From Hydrogenophaga sp. 2FB (GTDB lineage Bacteria > Pseudomonadota > Gammaproteobacteria > Burkholderiales > Burkholderiaceae_C): a stretch of DNA of 64,000 nucleotides. Below are positions 14,095 to 43,452 of this stretch, one piece after another (within the stretch, counting starts at the first letter, position 1; each line of letters starts with the position of its first letter). Position numbers and translations under genes: made by a program. The notes under the pieces are model-generated. The model was not told the DNA's origin and searched no databases. It saw only the letters and a program-made list of their open reading frames with translations. The stretch is from positions 1 through 64,000 of the forward strand of contig NZ_SCML01000026.1 of the NCBI RefSeq assembly GCF_005503365.1, given 5' to 3'.

Positions 14095-15030
14095 ATGCTG
14101 CCCGTCGACGAAATCCGCCTGAACTTCAACCCCGCCTCGCTGGCCGTGCTCAATGCCGTGCTGGCCTTCCTCATGTTCGGCATCGCGCTGGACACGCGCA
14201 TCGACGACTTCCGCCGCGTGGCGCGCATGCCGCTGGCGTTCACGGTCGGCATCGTCGCGCAGTTCATCGCGCTGCCGGCCATCACCTTCGTGCTCACGCT
14301 GTTGCTGCAACCGGGCCCGAGCATTGCGCTGGGCATGATCCTGGTGGCCTGCTGCCCACCGGGCAACGTGAGCAACATCCTCACCCACCGCGCCAACGGC
14401 AACGTGGCGCTCAGCGTGTCGATGACGGCGGTGTCCAACGCCATCGCCATCGTCGCCATGCCGTTGAACTTCGCGTTCTGGGGAGGCATCCACCCCACGG
14501 CCGCGCCGCTGCTCAAGACCATCGCGCTCGACCCGCTGGAAATGGTCGGCCACATCCTGCTGATCATCGGCATTCCCTTCGTGCTCGGCCTGTGGTGCTC
14601 GCACCGTTTCCCGAACTGGACCGCGCGCTTCAAGAAACCGCTGCGCATCATCAGCTTCCTCGCGCTCATCGCCTTCATCGTCGGCGCGATCGCGGGCAAC
14701 TGGCGCTACTTCCTCGACTACGTGGGCCTGGTGCTGCTCGCGGTGGTGATCCACGACGCGCTGGCGTTCGGCACGGGTTACGCCATCGCGCGCGCCGCGG
14801 GCCTGTCGGACTACGACCGCCGCGCGCTGTCCATCGAGGTCGGCATCCGCAACGCTGGCCTGGGCCTGGTCATCATCTTCAGCTTCTTCGGCGGCCTGGG
14901 TGGCATGGCCGTGGTGGCGGGCGTGTGGGGCTTCTGGGACATCATCGCCGGCCTGATCCTCGCGGGCTGGTGGTCGCGCCGTCCCTTGCAAGGGGGCATG
15001 CCCGAGGTGGCGGCAGAATCGAAGGCATGA
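14095..15030 (+). CDS. Bile acid:sodium symporter-family transporter
   Basis: 311-aa membrane protein with about nine to ten helices. It carries the family's ACCPPGNVSNILTHRANGN stretch (about residues 83-101), which contains the crossed-helix sodium site, and EVGIRNAGLGLVI (about 247-259), the second conserved half-helix. Bacterial members import organic anions, including sterol acids and pantoate-like acids. An AACAGGAGACACGC Shine-Dalgarno precedes the ATG. Placement after an SDR and a monooxygenase suggests uptake of their substrate. Its stop overlaps the next gene's start. Confidence 0.9.
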   Translation: MLPVDEIRLNFNPASLAVLNAVLAFLMFGIALDTRIDDFRRVARMPLAFTVGIVAQFIALPAITFVLTLLLQPGPSIALGMILVACCPPGNVSNILTHRANGNVALSVSMTAVSNAIAIVAMPLNFAFWGGIHPTAAPLLKTIALDPLEMVGHILLIIGIPFVLGLWCSHRFPNWTARFKKPLRIISFLALIAFIVGAIAGNWRYFLDYVGLVLLAVVIHDALAFGTGYAIARAAGLSDYDRRALSIEVGIRNAGLGLVIIFSFFGGLGGMAVVAGVWGFWDIIAGLILAGWWSRRPLQGGMPEVAAESKA

Positions 15031-18067: not shown

Positions 18068-20113
18068 TCAGGCGGCGTGCGGCAGCGCGAAGCGGCTGGC
18101 ATGGCGCCAGGCGCGGCGCAGCACGGCGGGCGACCACGATTCTTCGGGAATCAGCAGCACGCCGCGCGAACGCATCCAGGCGCCCAGCTCCACGTGGCTG
18201 GTGGCCACGGTGAGCGGCACGGCCAGCAGCAGGGGCAGGGCGACCGGGGCGAGCCAGATCAGCGCGTTGGCGTTGATCACGGCCACACCCAGGGCCAGCA
18301 GGCCGATCACGGCCGTCATGGGCGCCAGACGCGACACGGCATCGCTCCAGCTCACGCCGTTTGCTTCGCGCGGGGGCGACTTCCATTCGAGCTTGAGACC
18401 GGTGATGGCCACCAGCACGAACAGCGAGTGCGCCAGCATGCGGATGGGCGCCTGCATCACGGCCAGCAGCGTTTCCACCGCCGAGCTGCCGAGCAGGCCC
18501 ACGGTGCCGCCGAAGGACTTCTGCTCGCCCTTCATGAACACGGCCACCAGACCCAGCACGCGCGGCATGAACAACATGGTCAGCGTCCACATCCACAGCG
18601 CGCGCAGCTCCTCGGGCACGGCCTGCCAGGTCGGGATTTCGCCGGTGTGGGCGGTCCACAGCGCGGTGCCGATGCTCATGAAGGCCAGCCACAGCGGGGC
18701 CGACAGGTAGGACATGGCGCCAATGGCGAACATGGTGCGGTGCACGCGGTGGATGCCGGGCTCGGCCATCAGGCGCGAGTTCTGCAGGTTGCCCTGGCAC
18801 CAACGGCGGTCGCGCTGCAGTTCGCTCAGCAGGTCGGGCGGCTGCTGTTCGTAGCTGCCGGTGAGGTCGGAGACCAGCCACACGTGGTAGCCGGCGCGGC
18901 GCATCAGCGCGGCTTCCACGAAGTCGTGCGACATGATGCCGCCGGACATGCCGCCCGTGCCCTTGATGGGGGCCAGCGCGCAGTGCTGCATGAAGGGCTC
19001 GACGCGGATGATGGCGTTGTGGCCCCAGTAGTGCGACTCGCCGAGCTGCCAGAACTGCATGCCCAGCGTGAACAGACGGCCGGTCACGCGCGAGCCGAAC
19101 TGCTGCGCGCGCGCGTGCAGCGTGGCGTGGCCGATGGCCTGGGTGGCGGTCTGGATGATGCCGGCTTTCGGGTTGGCTTCCATCAGCTTGACCATGGACA
19201 CCAGGCAGCTGCCGCTCATGACGCTGTCGGCGTCGAGCACGACCATGTAGCGGTAGTCCTTGCCCCAGCGGCGGCAGAAGTCGGCCACGTTGCCGGCCTT
19301 GCGGTGGCTGCGGCGGGTGCGCAGGCGGTAGTACACCTCGATCTGCGGCAGGTCGGGCTGGGCGGCGAGCGCGGCGCGCAGGTCTTCCCAGGCGGTGCGC
19401 TCGGCCTTGGCGATGGCGGGGTTGTAGCTGTCGGAGAGCACGAACACGTCGAACTGCTGCGCATGGCCGGTGGCCGCGAGCGACTCGCAGGTGGCGCGCA
19501 GACCGGCGAACACGGTGGCCACGTCTTCGTTGCAGATCGGCATGATGATCGCCGTGCGCGCCTCGGGGTTCATGGCGTGCTCGCGCACGTCGGCGGCGCG
19601 CAGCGTGTGCTTGTCACCGAACAGCGAGACCCAGAAGCCCATGAGCGCGGTCACGAAACCGGTGACCACCCAGGCCGAGAGCAGGCCGAACAGCGCGAGC
19701 TGGCCGTATTGCAGCCAGGGGTTTTCGTGCACCGGTTGCGCGTCGGCGAACAGGCTGGTGGCGAAGGCGGTGCTCAACACCGTGAGCAGGGCGAACACGG
19801 CGCGGCGGCGGTTGGCGGCTTTCTCCCAGGCGGCGGCCGGCGCGGCGACTTCGGTGGACGCCGTGCGCGGGGGCATGGCGCGGCTGGCCGTGCTCAGGAT
19901 GGCGGTGCCGATGCTGTTCCAGAAACCGCGCCAGGGGCGCGGCACCATGGAGCCGCGGTTGATCGGTGGGGCCGTCGCCGCATTGGGGTGGCGTTCTTCG
20001 CGCAGCGAGGGTCTGGTGGACGGCATGGACGCACTGCCGTGCAGCGCCAGCGGTGCGTTGGCTGGGGCGAGAGCCGGTTCGGCGCTCATTCGGGTAGCAA
20101 CAGATGTGTCCAT
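18068..20113 (-). CDS. opgH: Osmoregulated periplasmic glucan glucosyltransferase OpgH/MdoH
   Basis: 681-aa inner-membrane glycosyltransferase family 2 enzyme that builds the linear beta-glucan backbone from UDP-glucose and extrudes it to the periplasm. Two helices lie around residues 85-150. The GT2 core contains IIMPICNEDV, VLDADS (DxD-type) and QRDRRWCQGN (Q/RxxRW). More helices follow in the C-terminal third. ATG at 20113 was chosen as it is the first start after the upstream gene frame and gives a normal length with a variable proline/alanine leader. It overlaps the end of opgG by 28 nt, so the two are translationally linked. Confidence 0.94.
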   Translation of the reverse strand: MDTSVATRMSAEPALAPANAPLALHGSASMPSTRPSLREERHPNAATAPPINRGSMVPRPWRGFWNSIGTAILSTASRAMPPRTASTEVAAPAAAWEKAANRRRAVFALLTVLSTAFATSLFADAQPVHENPWLQYGQLALFGLLSAWVVTGFVTALMGFWVSLFGDKHTLRAADVREHAMNPEARTAIIMPICNEDVATVFAGLRATCESLAATGHAQQFDVFVLSDSYNPAIAKAERTAWEDLRAALAAQPDLPQIEVYYRLRTRRSHRKAGNVADFCRRWGKDYRYMVVLDADSVMSGSCLVSMVKLMEANPKAGIIQTATQAIGHATLHARAQQFGSRVTGRLFTLGMQFWQLGESHYWGHNAIIRVEPFMQHCALAPIKGTGGMSGGIMSHDFVEAALMRRAGYHVWLVSDLTGSYEQQPPDLLSELQRDRRWCQGNLQNSRLMAEPGIHRVHRTMFAIGAMSYLSAPLWLAFMSIGTALWTAHTGEIPTWQAVPEELRALWMWTLTMLFMPRVLGLVAVFMKGEQKSFGGTVGLLGSSAVETLLAVMQAPIRMLAHSLFVLVAITGLKLEWKSPPREANGVSWSDAVSRLAPMTAVIGLLALGVAVINANALIWLAPVALPLLLAVPLTVATSHVELGAWMRSRGVLLIPEESWSPAVLRRAWRHASRFALPHAA

Positions 20114-21657
20114 GTTTCGCTCACTGTGTCGTTGTTGTGTTGCAGAAAGGCGCGCAGTTCGACCGGTTGTGCCGGGTCGACGCGTGCCACACGCACGGTC
20201 ACGCGCCAGGTGCGCGTGGCGGGGTTGGGGTAGGCCAGGGTTTGCAGCACGCGGCCGTTGGCGTCGGCGGTGATCACCGCCTTCACCGGCGCGTTGGCGG
20301 GCAGCGCGTCGAGCGCGGGGCCGGCGAAGTCGATCACGTACTGCGGCTGGCTGGCCTGTTCGGCGGCGGAGAGCTTGGAGTAGCCATAGCCGCGGCGCGT
20401 CTGGGTGACCCAGCTCGCGGGCGGGCGCTGTTGCGCATCGCCCTGCCAGGCCAGTTCGTAGCTCAGTTCCAGCGGCTGGCCAGCGGCGGGCAGTTGCGCG
20501 GGCACCCAGTAGGCGACGATGTTGTCGTGCGTCTCGTCGGGCGTGGGCAATTGCACCAGCTCCACGCGGCCATTGCCCCAGTCGCCCAGGGGTTTGATCC
20601 AGGCGCTCGGGCGGCGCTCGTAGCGCGCTTCCACGTCTTCGTAGTTGGCGAAGCTGCGGTCGCGCTGCATCAGGCCGAAGCCGCGCGGGTTCTGCAGCGT
20701 GAAGGAGCTGACCGTGACCGCCTTCGGACGCTGCAACGGGCGCCACAGCCATTCGCCGCTGCCGCTGGCGATCATCAGGCCGTCGGAGTCGTGCACCTCG
20801 GGGCGGAAGTCGCTCGGCAGGGCCTGGTTCTCGCCCGAGAGGAACATGCTGGTGAGCGGCGCCATGCCCAGGGTGTTCACCGGGCCGGCGCCGGCGCGCA
20901 GGAACACACGGGCGCTGACGGTGGTGGTGGTCTGCTGGCCCGGGCGGATCACGAAGCGGTAGGCGCCGGTGGCGCGCGGCGATTCGAGCAGCGCGAACAC
21001 GGTGACTTCCTGGGCGTCGGCGGCGGGCCGCTGCAGCCAGAACTCGCTGAAGCGCGGGAATTCTTCGCCGCTGCCACCCACGGTGTCGATCGCCAGGCCG
21101 CGTGCCGACAGGCCGTAGCCCTGCCCCGCGCCCAGCGCGCGGAAGTAGCTCGCACCCTGGAACACCGCCAGTTCGTCCTTGTAGGCCTGGCCGTTGAGCG
21201 GGTAGTGCAGGCGAAAGCCCGCGTGGCCGAGGTCGCCCCAGGCGCTGGTGTCAAACGTGTTCTTGCCGACGTTGAAATCCGCGCGGCGGTAAGGCAGGTG
21301 GTTCACCCGGCCATCGGGCAACAGTTCGTGGATGCGCACCGGCTCGGTCTGGTACAGGCCGAGGTGGAAGAACTGGGCTTCAAAGGGCAGGTTGGACGAG
21401 CGCCACAACGACTGGTCGGTGTTGAACCGGATGTCGCGCAGCTGGTCGTAGGTGATGTTGGCGAGCGTGTCGGGCAGCTTGTCGCTGTTTGCCCGAAAGG
21501 GTTCCTGGGCGAGGGTCTGCGCGCGTTGGGTCAGCGCGTCCCAGTCCATGCGGTGCGACTGGGCCGACGCCCCGCAAAGGGCTCCCGTCAGCGCGCCCAG
21601 CACGGTCCAGGCGCGCAGGCGCTGGAGGCTGAAAAACGGTCGGTTCGTGATGGGCAT
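20086..21657 (-). CDS. opgG: Periplasmic glucan biosynthesis protein OpgG/MdoG
   Basis: 523-aa periplasmic protein needed for branching or processing of osmoregulated glucans. Signal peptide: basic LQRLRAW, hydrophobic core, cleavage near GASAQS (about residue 33). Conserved OpgG blocks follow, including ITYDQLRDIRF and LGLYQTEPVRIHEL. No Shine-Dalgarno sequence precedes the ATG, and the predicted sigma-54 start site falls on this codon (see promoter entry), which suggests a leaderless message. It is directly downstream of glrR on the same strand and followed by opgH. Confidence 0.94.
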   Translation of the reverse strand: MPITNRPFFSLQRLRAWTVLGALTGALCGASAQSHRMDWDALTQRAQTLAQEPFRANSDKLPDTLANITYDQLRDIRFNTDQSLWRSSNLPFEAQFFHLGLYQTEPVRIHELLPDGRVNHLPYRRADFNVGKNTFDTSAWGDLGHAGFRLHYPLNGQAYKDELAVFQGASYFRALGAGQGYGLSARGLAIDTVGGSGEEFPRFSEFWLQRPAADAQEVTVFALLESPRATGAYRFVIRPGQQTTTTVSARVFLRAGAGPVNTLGMAPLTSMFLSGENQALPSDFRPEVHDSDGLMIASGSGEWLWRPLQRPKAVTVSSFTLQNPRGFGLMQRDRSFANYEDVEARYERRPSAWIKPLGDWGNGRVELVQLPTPDETHDNIVAYWVPAQLPAAGQPLELSYELAWQGDAQQRPPASWVTQTRRGYGYSKLSAAEQASQPQYVIDFAGPALDALPANAPVKAVITADANGRVLQTLAYPNPATRTWRVTVRVARVDPAQPVELRAFLQHNNDTVSETWTHLLLPE

Positions 21658-21669
21658 GCCGGTATAAGG

Positions 21670-21684
21670 GCAAACCCTGTGCCA
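21670..21684 (-). promoter_or_regulatory. Sigma-54 (-24/-12) promoter for opgGH
   Basis: On the minus strand TGGCAC-AGGGT-TTGC matches the RpoN consensus at every conserved base, with GG and GC exactly 10 bp apart. With -12 at 21670, the start point is 21657-21658, i.e. at the opgG ATG. The gene for a sigma-54 activator (GlrR) lies immediately upstream, and two GlrR-type operators are located 100-180 bp further up. No other sigma-54 gene target is nearby. Confidence 0.8.
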
Positions 21685-21779
21685 ACACGAAAAAATCCTT
21701 TTGAATCAACGCCTTTTCAGGTATCCAGATGTGTTTCCGGGACCTAGTGGGCTGAGGAGGGGGTGGAACCCCCTGTTTT

Positions 21780-21797
21780 TGTCGCCAAACAGCGACA
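21780..21797. promoter_or_regulatory. GlrR-type operator, promoter-proximal
   Basis: TGTC-GCCAAACAGC-GACA is an exact copy of the TGTC-N10-GACA motif reported for enterobacterial GlrR; the dyad extends to TGTCGC-N6-GCGACA. Its centre is about 130 bp upstream of the predicted start point, a usual enhancer distance. A GGGGG-TGGAA-CCCCC hairpin at 21759-21773 sits next to it. Confidence 0.75.
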
Positions 21798-21841
21798 GGA
21801 CTGGCCGGTGTTCTGGAAAACCCTAATCAAAACAACAGCTT

Positions 21842-21869
21842 GACGCTGTCACTCATCGGCGACAGCGTC
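21842..21869. promoter_or_regulatory. GlrR-type operator, distal, overlapping the glrR stop
   Basis: GACGCTGTC-N10-GACAGCGTC is a perfect inverted repeat with 9-bp arms containing TGTC-N10-GACA. It straddles the glrR stop codon, centre about 198 bp upstream of the predicted opgG start point and 67 bp from the proximal site. It lacks a T-run, so it does not look like a terminator. Confidence 0.75.
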
Positions 21870-23228
21870 GCTCTTGAACAGACCGGGCGTGAGCGCGTGC
21901 TTCTGCAGCAGGCGGTAGAACTCCGTGCGGTTGCGCTGCGCCAGACGGGCCGCGTCGGCCACGTTGCCGTCGGTCATCTTGAGCAGATCCACCAGGTACT
22001 CGCGCTCGAAGCGCTGCTTGGCGTCGGCAAAGCTCAGCACCTCCACCGACGGCGTGCGCAAGGCGCGCTGCACCAGCGCCAGCGAGACCAGCGGCGTGGC
22101 CGACAGCGCGCAGACCTGTTCGACCACGTTGTAGAGCTGGCGCACATTGCCCGGCCAGGGGGCCATCGTCAGCGCCTTGAGCGCTTCGGGCGCAAAGCCC
22201 GAGCTGCGCTTGCCGTACTTGGCGGCCAGCTTGGCGAGGAAGTGGTTGGCCAGCAGGGCGATGTCTTCGCGCCGCTCGGCCAGCGTGGGCAGGGTGAGCG
22301 TGACGACGTTGAGGCGGTAGTACAGGTCCTCGCGGAACTGCGCGGCGGCCATCGCGTCTTCCAGGTCGCGGTGGGTGGCCGAGATGATGCGCACGTCCAC
22401 CGGCATCGACTGGCTCGATCCGAGCGGGCGCACCGCGCGCTCCTGCAGCACGCGCAACAGCTTCACCTGCAAGGCCGGCGGCATGTCCCCGATTTCGTCG
22501 AGCAGCAGCGTGCCGCCATCGGCGGCCTGGAACAGGCCCTTGTGGTTGGCCACGGCGTCGGTGAAGGCGCCCTTCATGTGGCCGAAGAGCTCGGATTCGA
22601 GCAGCGCTTCCGGAATCGCGCCGCAGTTCACCGCGATGAACGGCCGGTTGGCGCGTGCGCTGGCCCTGTGGATGGCGCGCGCCAGCATTTCCTTGCCGGT
22701 GCCCGAGTCGCCGCGCAGCAGCACGCTGGCGTCGGACTGCGCCACCATGCGCGCCTCGGCCAGCAGGTCGGCCATGCGGTTGGAGCGGCTCACGATCTCG
22801 CTGCGCCAGGCCTCGTCGACGTGGGTGTTCTGGTGCGCGGGCGCGCCCAGGGCCAGCGCCTGCGCGATCTTCTCGAGCAGTTCCTTGGCGTCGTAGGGCT
22901 TGGTGAGGTAGGTGAAGACGCCGCGCGCCGTGGCCTCGACCGCGTCGGGGATGGTGCCGTGCGCGGTGAGCAGGATCACCGGCAGCGAGGGGTGGCGCGC
23001 GCGGATCTCGTCGAACAGTGCCAGGCCGTCGCGCCCGGGCAGGCGCACGTCGGAGAGCACGAGCTGCGGCCGCTCGATGTCGAGTTGCGCCAGCGCGGCT
23101 TCGGCCGAACCGACCGAGGTGACCTGGTAGCCCGCGGAGCCCAGCCGCATCGCCAACAGGCGCAGCATGTCCGCGTCGTCGTCGACGACGAGCAGGCGGG
23201 CGCGCGGCGTGGCGGTGTGGTCGCTCAT
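21849..23228 (-). CDS. glrR: Sigma-54-dependent response regulator GlrR (QseF)
   Basis: 459-aa NtrC-type regulator of the GlrKR envelope-stress system. Receiver: VVDDDAD at 15-20 and phosphoacceptor Asp60 in LVLSDVRLPG. AAA+: Walker A GDSGTGKEM and Walker B LLDEIGD. The sigma-54 contact loop reads GAFTDA (Asp224) instead of GAFTGA. C-terminal Fis-type helix-turn-helix NVADAARLAQRNRTEFYRLL. Long blocks such as QVKLLRVLQER and ISATHRDL match enterobacterial GlrR closely. It overlaps the lipoprotein gene by 4 nt, completing glrK-lipoprotein-glrR, the same order as in E. coli, where it activates sigma-54 promoters (glmY, rpoE). Confidence 0.92.
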   Translation of the reverse strand: MSDHTATPRARLLVVDDDADMLRLLAMRLGSAGYQVTSVGSAEAALAQLDIERPQLVLSDVRLPGRDGLALFDEIRARHPSLPVILLTAHGTIPDAVEATARGVFTYLTKPYDAKELLEKIAQALALGAPAHQNTHVDEAWRSEIVSRSNRMADLLAEARMVAQSDASVLLRGDSGTGKEMLARAIHRASARANRPFIAVNCGAIPEALLESELFGHMKGAFTDAVANHKGLFQAADGGTLLLDEIGDMPPALQVKLLRVLQERAVRPLGSSQSMPVDVRIISATHRDLEDAMAAAQFREDLYYRLNVVTLTLPTLAERREDIALLANHFLAKLAAKYGKRSSGFAPEALKALTMAPWPGNVRQLYNVVEQVCALSATPLVSLALVQRALRTPSVEVLSFADAKQRFEREYLVDLLKMTDGNVADAARLAQRNRTEFYRLLQKHALTPGLFKSDAVADE

Positions 23229-23893
23229 GGTGGGGTGGGGCGCGGGGTGACGGGCGGCCGGGTGGTGAGACTGCGCTCGATCGCGCGCATGGCTTCCAGG
23301 CGCTCGTTGAGCTGGTCGATGCGGCGCTGGCTCTCTCGCAGCTGCTGGGCCTGGCGCTCCGCGCTGTCTTCCAGCTTGCGCTGGTCCATCAGGCGGTTGG
23401 CCAGCAGGCGCGCCAGCGGCTTGAGCGGCAGGCTCTCGGCGCCGACGTGGTTGATCACGCGCTGCAAGAGGCCGAGGGCGCGCGCGGTTTCCGCGGGCTG
23501 GCGCAAATGGATGAGCGCCAGCGCCAGCTGCATCTGGCGCAGCGGCGCATTGCCCGGGTCGCCCTGCACCACGATCTCGGCCGCCAGGTCGGTCGGGCTG
23601 AGCGCTTGCAGGCGGTCGGCGTAGCTCAGCAGGGCCGCGACCACGTCGGGCGCGGGGGGTGTTTCGGCGCTGAGCACCACCGGGGGTTGGGCCGGTGCGG
23701 CCTGCAGGGGCGTGACGGTGGGCGCGGCAACCGGCGGGCGGGTGGTCGGGATGGAGGCGCCCTCGGACCCGGTGGTGCTGGGCGCGGCGGGCGCCGCGCT
23801 GCACGCGGCCAGCCAGAAGGCGAGCACGGAAACAAGGGTGCAGCAACCGGCGCGCGTCAGGCGGCTGGGTGGTGGTGACAGGTCAGTTGGCAT
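23225..23893 (-). CDS. QseG-like outer-membrane lipoprotein
   Basis: 222-aa lipoprotein. The signal peptide ends in lipobox LAAC (cysteine near residue 31). A low-complexity alanine/proline/threonine stretch follows, then an alpha-helical part. A heptad-rich coiled coil (QRKLEDSAERQAQQLRESQR and on, about 165-207) is near the C-terminus. ATG 23893 was chosen because it directly precedes the signal. Position between glrK and glrR, with overlaps on both sides (11 and 4 nt), equals that of enterobacterial QseG, which modulates the GlrK sensor; sequence similarity itself cannot be judged here. Confidence 0.8.
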   Translation of the reverse strand: MPTDLSPPPSRLTRAGCCTLVSVLAFWLAACSAAPAAPSTTGSEGASIPTTRPPVAAPTVTPLQAAPAQPPVVLSAETPPAPDVVAALLSYADRLQALSPTDLAAEIVVQGDPGNAPLRQMQLALALIHLRQPAETARALGLLQRVINHVGAESLPLKPLARLLANRLMDQRKLEDSAERQAQQLRESQRRIDQLNERLEAMRAIERSLTTRPPVTPRPTPP

Positions 23894-25301
23894 GGGGCAG
23901 TTCGATGCGGAAGTGGGCGCCCTGGCGCTGGGGCAGCAGCGTGATGCGACCCCCGTGGGCAAGAATGTACTCGTGCACGATGGACAGGCCGATACCGGTG
24001 CCGCGCACGGTGCCGGTGGGTTGGCGTTCACCGCGGAAGAAGGGTTCGAAGATGCGCTCGCGGTCGGCCTCGGCCACGCCCGGTCCCTGGTCGACGATGT
24101 CGATGCAGACGCGCCCCGGCAGGTCCAGCAGCACGAGGTGGATCTGGCCGCCGTGCGGCGAGAAACGGATCGCGTTGGACAGGAGGTTGCCCACGGCGGA
24201 CGCGATCTTCTCGCGGTCCAGCGGCATCGTCACGGGCGCGCCGTCCACCCGCACCGTCAGGGCCTGGGCCTGCCACTGCAGGCGCTGGATGTCGACCTGG
24301 TCTTCGAGCAAGGCGATCAGTTCGGTGCGCTCGCGCTTGAGCTGGCGCGCCTCGAACGCCGCTGCGTTGAAGCGCAGCAGCGCCTCGATCTGGTGCTGCA
24401 GCAACTGGGTGTTGTGCTGCAGGATGGTCACCACCTCGGCCTGGCTGGTGTTGAGCGGGCCGGCCACGCCGTCGCCCAGCACCGCCACGCCTTCGTGCAG
24501 CGAGGCCAGGGGTGTCTTGAGTTCGTGCGAGACGTGGCGCAGGAAACGCGCCTTGTCGGCGTCGAGTTCGGTCAGGCGCAGGCGCAGCCAATCGAGTTGC
24601 TGGCTCACGCGGCGCACGTCCGAGGGGCCGTGGATGTCGATCGGCACATCGAGCCGGTTCTCGCCCAGGCCCTGAATGGCCTTCTCCAGCCGCTTGAAGG
24701 GCCGCGCCAGCCAGACGCCAAAGGCCAGCGCCAGGATGGCGGCGATGCCGATCGAGCCCACCACCTGCTCGGTGAGTTCCTGCCGGCTGGTTTCGAAGCG
24801 CGCCTGCAGGGCTTCGTTGCGGCCGGTGATGATGGACTGCACCTTCTGCGCGATCGAGGCGCTGTGGCCGTCGATTTCGCGGAATGCCTGCGCCACTTCG
24901 CGTTCGCGGTCCAGCGCCGTTTCGGGTGGGCCGTCGAGCAACAGGGTGATGGCGTCGAGCCGCTCGCGCCAGTTGGTGGCGTACTCGGGCGGCAGTTCGT
25001 TGTCTTCGAGCCGGCGCAGGATGTCGCGCGCGTTGCCCGAGGCCTCGTCGAAACGCCGGCGCAGCTGGACGTCGCGCAGCACGAGCGATTGGCGCGCGGC
25101 GCGCTCCATGGTCAGGCTGCGTTCGGAGAGCGACTGCGCGGCGGTGGACAGCGCGATCGCCTGTGCCGCACTGTCGCGGCTTTGCGCCATCAGGGTTTCG
25201 AGCGAGAACAGCGTGCGCACGGCGGCCAGGCCCAGCAACGCCCCGATCAACAGGAAGGCGACCAGCAGCAACTGCTGGAAGGAGAAACGCAGGGGTTTCA
25301 C
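23883..25301 (-). CDS. glrK: Sensor histidine kinase GlrK (QseE)
   Basis: 472-aa membrane kinase. TM1 is at about residues 10-30, a periplasmic helical sensor region at 32-175, and TM2 at about 180-200, followed by HAMP. The HisKA box RHVSHELKTPLASL has the phosphoacceptor His259. The HATPase domain has NAIRFSPHGG, DQGPGV and GTGIGLSIV. It senses cell-envelope state and phosphorylates GlrR. The start is 6 nt after the miaB stop, so transcription may come partly from the miaB promoter. Confidence 0.9.
   Translation of the reverse strand: MKPLRFSFQQLLLVAFLLIGALLGLAAVRTLFSLETLMAQSRDSAAQAIALSTAAQSLSERSLTMERAARQSLVLRDVQLRRRFDEASGNARDILRRLEDNELPPEYATNWRERLDAITLLLDGPPETALDREREVAQAFREIDGHSASIAQKVQSIITGRNEALQARFETSRQELTEQVVGSIGIAAILALAFGVWLARPFKRLEKAIQGLGENRLDVPIDIHGPSDVRRVSQQLDWLRLRLTELDADKARFLRHVSHELKTPLASLHEGVAVLGDGVAGPLNTSQAEVVTILQHNTQLLQHQIEALLRFNAAAFEARQLKRERTELIALLEDQVDIQRLQWQAQALTVRVDGAPVTMPLDREKIASAVGNLLSNAIRFSPHGGQIHLVLLDLPGRVCIDIVDQGPGVAEADRERIFEPFFRGERQPTGTVRGTGIGLSIVHEYILAHGGRITLLPQRQGAHFRIELPHAN

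Positions 25302-42213: not shown

Positions 42214-43452
<1,239 letters not shown>

Follow-up and report, generated by a model that had tools for sequence, protein, structure and literature searches.

The window analysed here is a 64-kb stretch of the genome of Hydrogenophaga sp. 2FB (positions 1 to 64,000 of contig NZ_SCML01000026.1), in which five minus-strand genes succeed each other in the order kinase, lipoprotein, glrR-like regulator, opgG and opgH. The first gene (23883-25301) encodes a glrK/qseE-like sensor histidine kinase, to which Pfam assigns HAMP, HisKA and HATPase domains. It is 32% identical to E. coli GlrK across residues 55-471, and among the NCBIfam models it matches only a general histidine kinase, under the cut-off. 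The second gene (23225-23893), overlapping the end of the kinase gene, is read from the sequence as a lipoprotein of 222 residues with a LAAC lipobox, and returns no Pfam match. Its similarity to E. coli QseG is so weak (a match of 17 residues only, E 0.008) that the protein is named qseG-like mainly by position, its gene standing between kinase and regulator as in the three-component qseE-qseG-qseF systems. Similar lipoprotein translations are found in 75 of 118 loci of relatives, and loci of the qseE-qseG-qseF type occur in Betaproteobacteria, according to the available sections of PMC12691602. The third gene (21849-23228) encodes a sigma-54 activator of the glrR/qseF type with receiver, AAA+ and helix-turn-helix domains, as indicated by Pfam, NCBIfam and alignment with E. 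coli GlrR (259 of 444 aligned residues identical, 58%). Its top NCBIfam match is GlrR itself (NF011695, 608 bits) and, since this score is under the curated cut-off of 763, the protein is called GlrR-like on the basis of that identity and of the gene order. The C-terminal helix-turn-helix is very similar to that of E. coli GlrR, the RNRTEFY stretch included. Downstream, opgG (20086-21657; PF04349, 523 residues, with a signal peptide recognised by eye) is followed by the glucosyltransferase gene opgH (18068-20089; NCBIfam MdoH, over the cut-off), the ATG of which overlaps the opgG stop codon (ATGA). The MdoG domain of the former and the MdoH equivalog match of the latter identify the pair as an opgGH operon. 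Elsewhere, the genome (G000) carries two rpoN copies, both over the family cut-off, on contigs C58 (36872-38479) and C33 (102442-103854).

Within the glrR-opgG gap, a pattern search reports a minus-strand sigma-54 -24/-12 box, TGGCACAGGGTTTGC, at 21670-21684, which has the GG-N10-GC spacing and ends 12 nt before the opgG ATG. The first-pass annotation had described this box as TGGCAC-N5-TTGC, and it is indeed the sole exact match to that pattern in the window; when up to two mismatches are allowed, 93 matches are observed vs 114 expected. Upstream of the box lie two candidate GlrR operators of the TGTC-N10-GACA form, also on the minus strand and likewise announced by that annotation: the near one (UAS2), TGTCGCTGTTTGGCGACA, at 21780-21797, and the far one (UAS1), TGTCGCCGATGAGTGACA, at 21847-21864, which overlaps the glrR stop codon. 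They had been placed within 85 bp of the box, but this figure is the span of both operators, the near one lying ~95 bp and the far one ~163 bp from the box. The window should hold 0.92 exact TGTC-N10-GACA matches by chance and holds three, the two operators and a site at 43121-43138. Genome-wide, 86 matches are found in 6.31 Mb, or about one per 73 kb, close to the earlier estimate of one per 65 kb, and the reversed control pattern returns 57. The more demanding TGTCGCN6GCGACA occurs exactly only once in the 6.31-Mb genome, as the near operator, and the far operator is a one-mismatch copy of it 67 bp away. If one mismatch is tolerated, the genome has fewer matches to the near-operator pattern (48) than to its reversed control (74), so that single sites mean little. 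The arrangement is a different matter: when the 254-base gap region is shuffled 5000 times with its dinucleotides preserved, and one mismatch is allowed per site, the box with two operators never recurs in this arrangement, and the box with one operator does so twice. The sites in the glrR-opgG gap are not there by chance.

The perfect 9-bp arms that had been attributed to the far dyad (21842-21869) are real, but conservation is confined to the TGTC/GACA core. The outer arm bases have a mean identity of 0.63 in the 27 genomes of the genus compared, near the 0.54 of the background, and the extra arm length is therefore probably due to chance. The position of these long arms at the glrR stop codon would suit an RNA hairpin, for example a glrR terminator, and the dyads might then not be operators at all. 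We regard this as extremely improbable: TGTC and GACA are conserved and the outer arm bases are not, the distance between the two dyads is 65-68 bp in 46 of 51 loci, and Rfam returns no match at gathering score between positions 15000 and 27000. The hairpin or terminator candidate was accordingly rejected on the arms and the Rfam result, and the dyads are treated below as candidate operators.

Conservation was followed in opgG upstream regions of related genomes. OpgG is found in 32 of 60 relatives and in 81 of 250 family genomes, and 97 loci, the window's included, make up the set examined, which omits 6 of the 36 matches in relatives and 36 of the 106 in family genomes; among 76 family-genome matches, the 40 that were added are the better-scoring ones, apart from three fragments. 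In 53 of the 97 loci, glrR lies immediately upstream of opgG, and there, with at most one mismatch per site, an operator is present in 52, a box in 52 and both in 51, the misses being L037 and L046. Where glrR is not adjacent, both site types are found in 3 of 44 loci (L029, L042 and L044), and in none of 39 further opgG-like family loci (L074-L112), all of which lack an adjacent glrR. Loss of the sites in relatives with the same gene order had been set beforehand as the outcome that would overturn the proposal, and the opposite is observed. The 51 loci with an operator pair and a box (L041 dropped) keep the two operators 67 bp apart in 37 cases. When 27 loci of the genus, again including that of the window, are aligned, the majority base reaches 0.99 in the operator half-sites (TGTC/GACA) and 0.97 in the -24/-12 box, as compared with 0.54 in the 117 columns outside the named elements; the 12 nt that separate the box from the opgG ATG are only moderately conserved (0.72).

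The three loci without an adjacent glrR bear on which gene the sites serve. In L042 (genome G177) and L044 (genome G148), both operators and the box precede opgG although glrR resides elsewhere on the same contig; behind these separated glrR genes (L237 and L235), neither an operator pair nor a box is found within 500 nt, although L237 has a lone operator-like match at 440 nt. L029 comes from another family of the order; there, opgG is preceded by an operator and a box that are both exact, and glrR is on another contig. These loci keep the sites with opgG, which shows that the sites accompany the gene they regulate and do not simply result from the glrR coding sequence. It could still be argued that they serve glrR itself or a different transcript, as the operators adjoin glrR, one of them overlapping its end, and as the promoter stands beside glrK in some Rhodocyclaceae records. 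However, the box is oriented towards opgG, whose ATG is 12 nt away, with glrR behind it, and the sites persist before opgG where glrR has moved, which makes a role other than opgGH transcription very improbable. The genome that carries L029 (G046) also has an operator and a box behind glrR, before a glycine-zipper protein gene (L239), and perhaps possesses two GlrR targets.

Two putative minus-strand IHF-like sites, absent from the first-pass annotation, complete the gap. Site a, CAAGCTGTTGTTT, at 21830-21842, lies between the operators, and site b, AAAGGCGTTGATT, at 21704-21716, begins 32 bp upstream of TGGCAC; each has one mismatch to YAANNNNTTGATW, which we take to be the IHF consensus and used for scoring. 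Among the 51 loci with an operator pair and a box, a site with at most one mismatch is present between the operators in 36, and in 45 such a site starts 31-32 bp ahead of TGGCAC. Between the near operator and the box, 32 of the 51 loci have an exact consensus, vs a mean of 0.06 in plain letter shuffles, both sites of the window being one base off; with one mismatch allowed, the figures are 49 of 51 loci and a shuffled mean of 2.4. The two sites are conserved at 0.84 and 0.75 in the 27 genus loci. IHF-type sites may be part of the promoter layout. Between 21704 and 21842 of the window, each IHF-like site is followed by a weakly conserved G-then-T-rich stretch, which gives the impression of a ~25-bp unit repeated to either side of the near operator.

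The position of the box relative to opgG is equally constrained. All 27 genus loci read TTGC-N11/12-ATG, and in 85 of 99 distinct opgG loci an in-frame start codon, always ATG, lies 11-14 nt past the box (69 at 12 nt, 9 at 11, 6 at 13 and 1 at 14), the other 14 having no start at this position. The 99 loci combine sets of 53 and 46, from which L028-L030, loci lacking an operator or with a box more than one mismatch off (L037, L046) and 11 duplicates were left out. Where opgH directly follows the promoter, the ATG is also found at 12 nt in 7 of 10 loci. As this spacing is that between box and start for the E. coli small RNA GlmY, transcription in the window is predicted to start at 21657-21658 on the minus strand, on the A of the opgG ATG or the base beside it, and the opgG mRNA is probably leaderless, beginning at its start codon. 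Alternatively, the promoter may be real and GlrR-dependent while the opgG message has a leader or uses a later start codon, the 12-nt spacing reflecting something else. The point at which sigma-54 polymerase starts can shift by a few bases, 14 of the 99 loci lack a start at the leaderless position, and several of the BON, EF-hand and glycine-zipper targets described below have leaders of ~35-100 nt with a ribosome-site-like stretch. Such a reading would nevertheless have to account for a spacing of exactly 12 nt in 69 of the 99 loci, for the exclusive use of ATG in the 85 short-spaced ones and for the GlmY 5' end at the same distance; in the window, moreover, the next in-frame start is codon 19, within the likely signal peptide. 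We consider it unlikely, and retain the leaderless message as the favoured reading. In two Variovorax loci (L144 and L190), the ATG 12 nt past the box opens a similar frame of 67 codons, which ends shortly before opgH and in another frame, a possible leaderless leader peptide. Leaderless mRNAs of the alphaproteobacteria Sinorhizobium and Bradyrhizobium begin at the AUG, which is used at all leaderless starts of S. meliloti (available text of PMC3616915), and the leaderless motif of PMC4842269 is, in the sections available, of the -10 type. The accessible parts of these two papers describe no leaderless gene under sigma-54, and the opgG candidate would differ in this respect. If true, a family-conserved sigma-54 leaderless mRNA would be a useful case for studying regulated translation without a ribosome site.

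The same genome was scanned for further GlrR promoters. An operator combined with a loose box returns 12 matches (3 forward and 9 reverse), vs 6 (3 and 3) for the control. The opgG box has no mismatch, one on contig C71 has 2 and the rest have 3-4; the genome yields no other operator accompanied by a box with 0 or 1 mismatch, and with 2-4 mismatches in all 11 boxes other than that of opgG, other GlrR promoters in this genome were rejected. Contig C39 (L113) displays a near-tandem pair of sites, read by eye within 401 bases.

Beyond this genome, a scan of genome contigs for the near operator and box, blind to the genes around them, returns at least 118 stretches. The number is a minimum and no census, and the pattern demanded an exact near operator, which favours close relatives. 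Among the stretches listed, glrR is directly upstream in 95 and further upstream in 1, a divergent glrK is found in 4, another activator (below 56% identity) in 5 and neither glrR nor glrK in 9, and 4 are cut. The gene next behind the 95 glrR is, among these matches, opgG in 56, a BON protein gene in 25, opgH in 10 and a cyanophycin synthetase gene in 1, with 3 cut, and beside the divergent glrK it is a bactofilin gene in 3 of 4. These downstream classes rest on BLAST with seven self-chosen query proteins and one query per opg gene, and Pfam agrees for six of the BON queries, for the bactofilin and for the cyanophycin synthetase. The bactofilin cases (L124, L130 and L182) are Rhodocyclaceae MAGs in which the promoter diverges from glrK, and the cyanophycin synthetase case is Noviherbaspirillum massiliense (L154), where the gene behind glrR and the promoter has no obvious envelope role. 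Approached from the regulator, the 3' regions of GlrR orthologues sampled from the order and class contain an operator and a box in 30 of 64 cases and the full pair in 17 of 64, as compared with 3 and 0 of 3200 shuffles; the other 34 have no operator with box under the criteria used. The 64 regions include the window, a congener and hand-picked genomes, a short one (L269) being dropped, and DNA was taken from the best matches only, out of the 60 of 274 and 62 of 150 genomes with a match. Ten products picked from these loci return, by Pfam, BON with EF-hands (3), BON alone (1), EF-hands (2), glycine zipper (3) or nothing (1); at one of the ten loci (L292), the same criteria detect the box without an operator. 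Most identified outputs are secreted, periplasmic or cell-shape proteins, the cyanophycin synthetase being the exception.

That the pattern adjoins glrR while the downstream genes vary argues that the promoter belongs to GlrR, opgGH being its output mainly in one family. The comparison suggests that the promoter stays tied to glrR while its target changes between opgG, opgH, BON, EF-hand, glycine-zipper, bactofilin and cyanophycin synthetase genes. A different assignment, in which another NtrC-family activator and not the adjacent GlrR uses the operators, could draw on the 73 matches that the GlrR query returns in the genome and on the five loci where the pattern accompanies other activators. 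It is made very improbable by the 95 stretches directly behind glrR and the 4 diverging from glrK among the at least 118 listed, and by the operator itself, which is a known E. coli QseF site but for 2 of 18 bases. Four Firmicutes-type loci (L128, L133, L142 and L188) show the same pattern with a different sigma-54 activator of 44-47% identity, and may be chance matches or belong to a separate family whose site resembles this one.

Taken together, it is quite likely that the glrR-opgG gap constitutes a complete GlrR-activated sigma-54 enhancer promoter of the glmY type, driving opgGH from a start on or near the opgG ATG. GlrR very probably controls the periplasmic glucan genes here, and the first-pass proposal of such control through a sigma-54 promoter is supported, at the level of sequence comparison, by the conservation and by the likeness to the glmY promoter and to GlrR. 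In this scheme, dimers of the GlrR-like protein would bind the two TGTCGC...GACA operators 67 bp apart, phosphorylated GlrR being the activator as at glmY. Bends of the IHF type, one by the far operator and another shortly before the -24 element, would bring the activator to the sigma-54 polymerase, which would wait at TGGCAC-N5-TTGC and open there. Transcription would start at the A of the opgG ATG, or 1-2 bases from it, yielding a leaderless mRNA, and translation of opgH would be coupled to that of opgG via the ATGA overlap. Transcripts from a more distant upstream promoter could reach opgGH as well. The signal would be supplied by the QseG-like lipoprotein and the kinase, and may be the envelope stress that the first-pass annotation proposed. 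QseG reaches across the periplasm and touches the kinase, from which we infer that the circuit may sense the state of the periplasm and answer with glucans that set its volume; a loop in which the sensor reads a state set by the glucans themselves is a speculation. The lipoprotein itself points to an input of the QseG type from the periplasm, on the available text of PMC12691602.

More broadly, GlrR may carry, beside glrKR, a portable UAS-IHF-UAS-IHF-sigma-54 unit whose output is swapped by lineage, with a leaderless opgGH and a circuit that may sense the periplasm, a composite proposal that we hold to be evenly balanced. The predicted outputs would be the GlmY small RNA in enterics, opgGH in the Hydrogenophaga family and the others mostly in betaproteobacterial lineages. 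Three elements are new beyond the first-pass annotation: the IHF-type sites, the spacing expected of a leaderless message and the apparent change of target in other lineages. If correct, the scheme provides a clear target of GlrKR at the protein level outside enterobacteria, and a transcriptional route into osmoregulated periplasmic glucan synthesis. It also suggests that an enhancer promoter can remain attached to one regulator through successive outputs, which makes the conserved job of a poorly understood sensor testable.

The literature searched, which covers few subscription papers and not the main study of the glmY promoter, connects GlrR nowhere with opgGH and has no paper on GlrR in Hydrogenophaga. 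The available sections of PMC6075780, PMC5243855, PMC4287350, PMC12691602, PMC8895600 and PMC8745638 contain no such link, and opgG, mdoG and glucan are absent from the accessible text of PMC3162934. The one literature match for GlrR together with opgG is, to judge by its entry, an E. coli fluoride study, and the accessible part of PMC5192318 deals with a Burkholderia operon of different gene order and does not mention GlrR.

The known systems closest to this locus are opgGH in other bacteria and the enterobacterial targets of GlrR. The opgGH (mdoGH) operon of other proteobacteria comprises the same two genes, and there it is under osmolarity control. In gut bacteria, GlrR activates a small RNA with a protective role for the cell envelope. 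The available text of PMC6075780 reports that QseF and IHF activate glmY and that QseF activates rpoE, both from sigma-54 promoters, and gives the QseF operator as TGTN12ACA; that of PMC8745638 gives the consensus as TGTCN10GACA, with three QseF and two IHF sites at glmY. By its description in PMC6075780, E. coli rpoE P2 is likewise a sigma-54 promoter of an envelope gene preceded by QseF-type operators. The GlmY RNA itself (RF00128) was not found in the Hydrogenophaga genome among the 150 of 251 first-look candidates that were scored, the E. coli control being found. The glmY promoters of E. coli and Proteus mirabilis share with the window the TGTC-N10-GACA operators, the TGGCAC box and the linked glrK-qseG-glrR genes. 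Upstream of E. coli K-12 glmY, the operators TGTCGCTTTCTGGCGACA and TGTCTCTTTTTAGCGACA are 63 bp apart, with a third operator further up, and the box TGGCACAGTTACTGC follows 107 bp after TGTCTCTTTTTAGCGACA; an exact IHF consensus stands just behind TGTCGCTTTCTGGCGACA, and the annotated GlmY 5' end is 12 nt past the box. The near operator of the window is identical in 16 of 18 bases to the middle glmY operator, TGTCGCTTTCTGGCGACA. E. coli glmY differs by its three operators, an overlapping sigma-70 promoter and a small RNA target placed before glrK, whereas the window has two operators, a protein operon after glrR and a predicted start on the ATG. The spacings are 63 and 107 bp at glmY vs 67 and 113 bp in the window, with 12 nt from the box to the annotated or predicted start, and the layout of the glrR-opgG gap matches that of E. 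coli glmY: operators and box agree in sequence, in their order and in their spacing.
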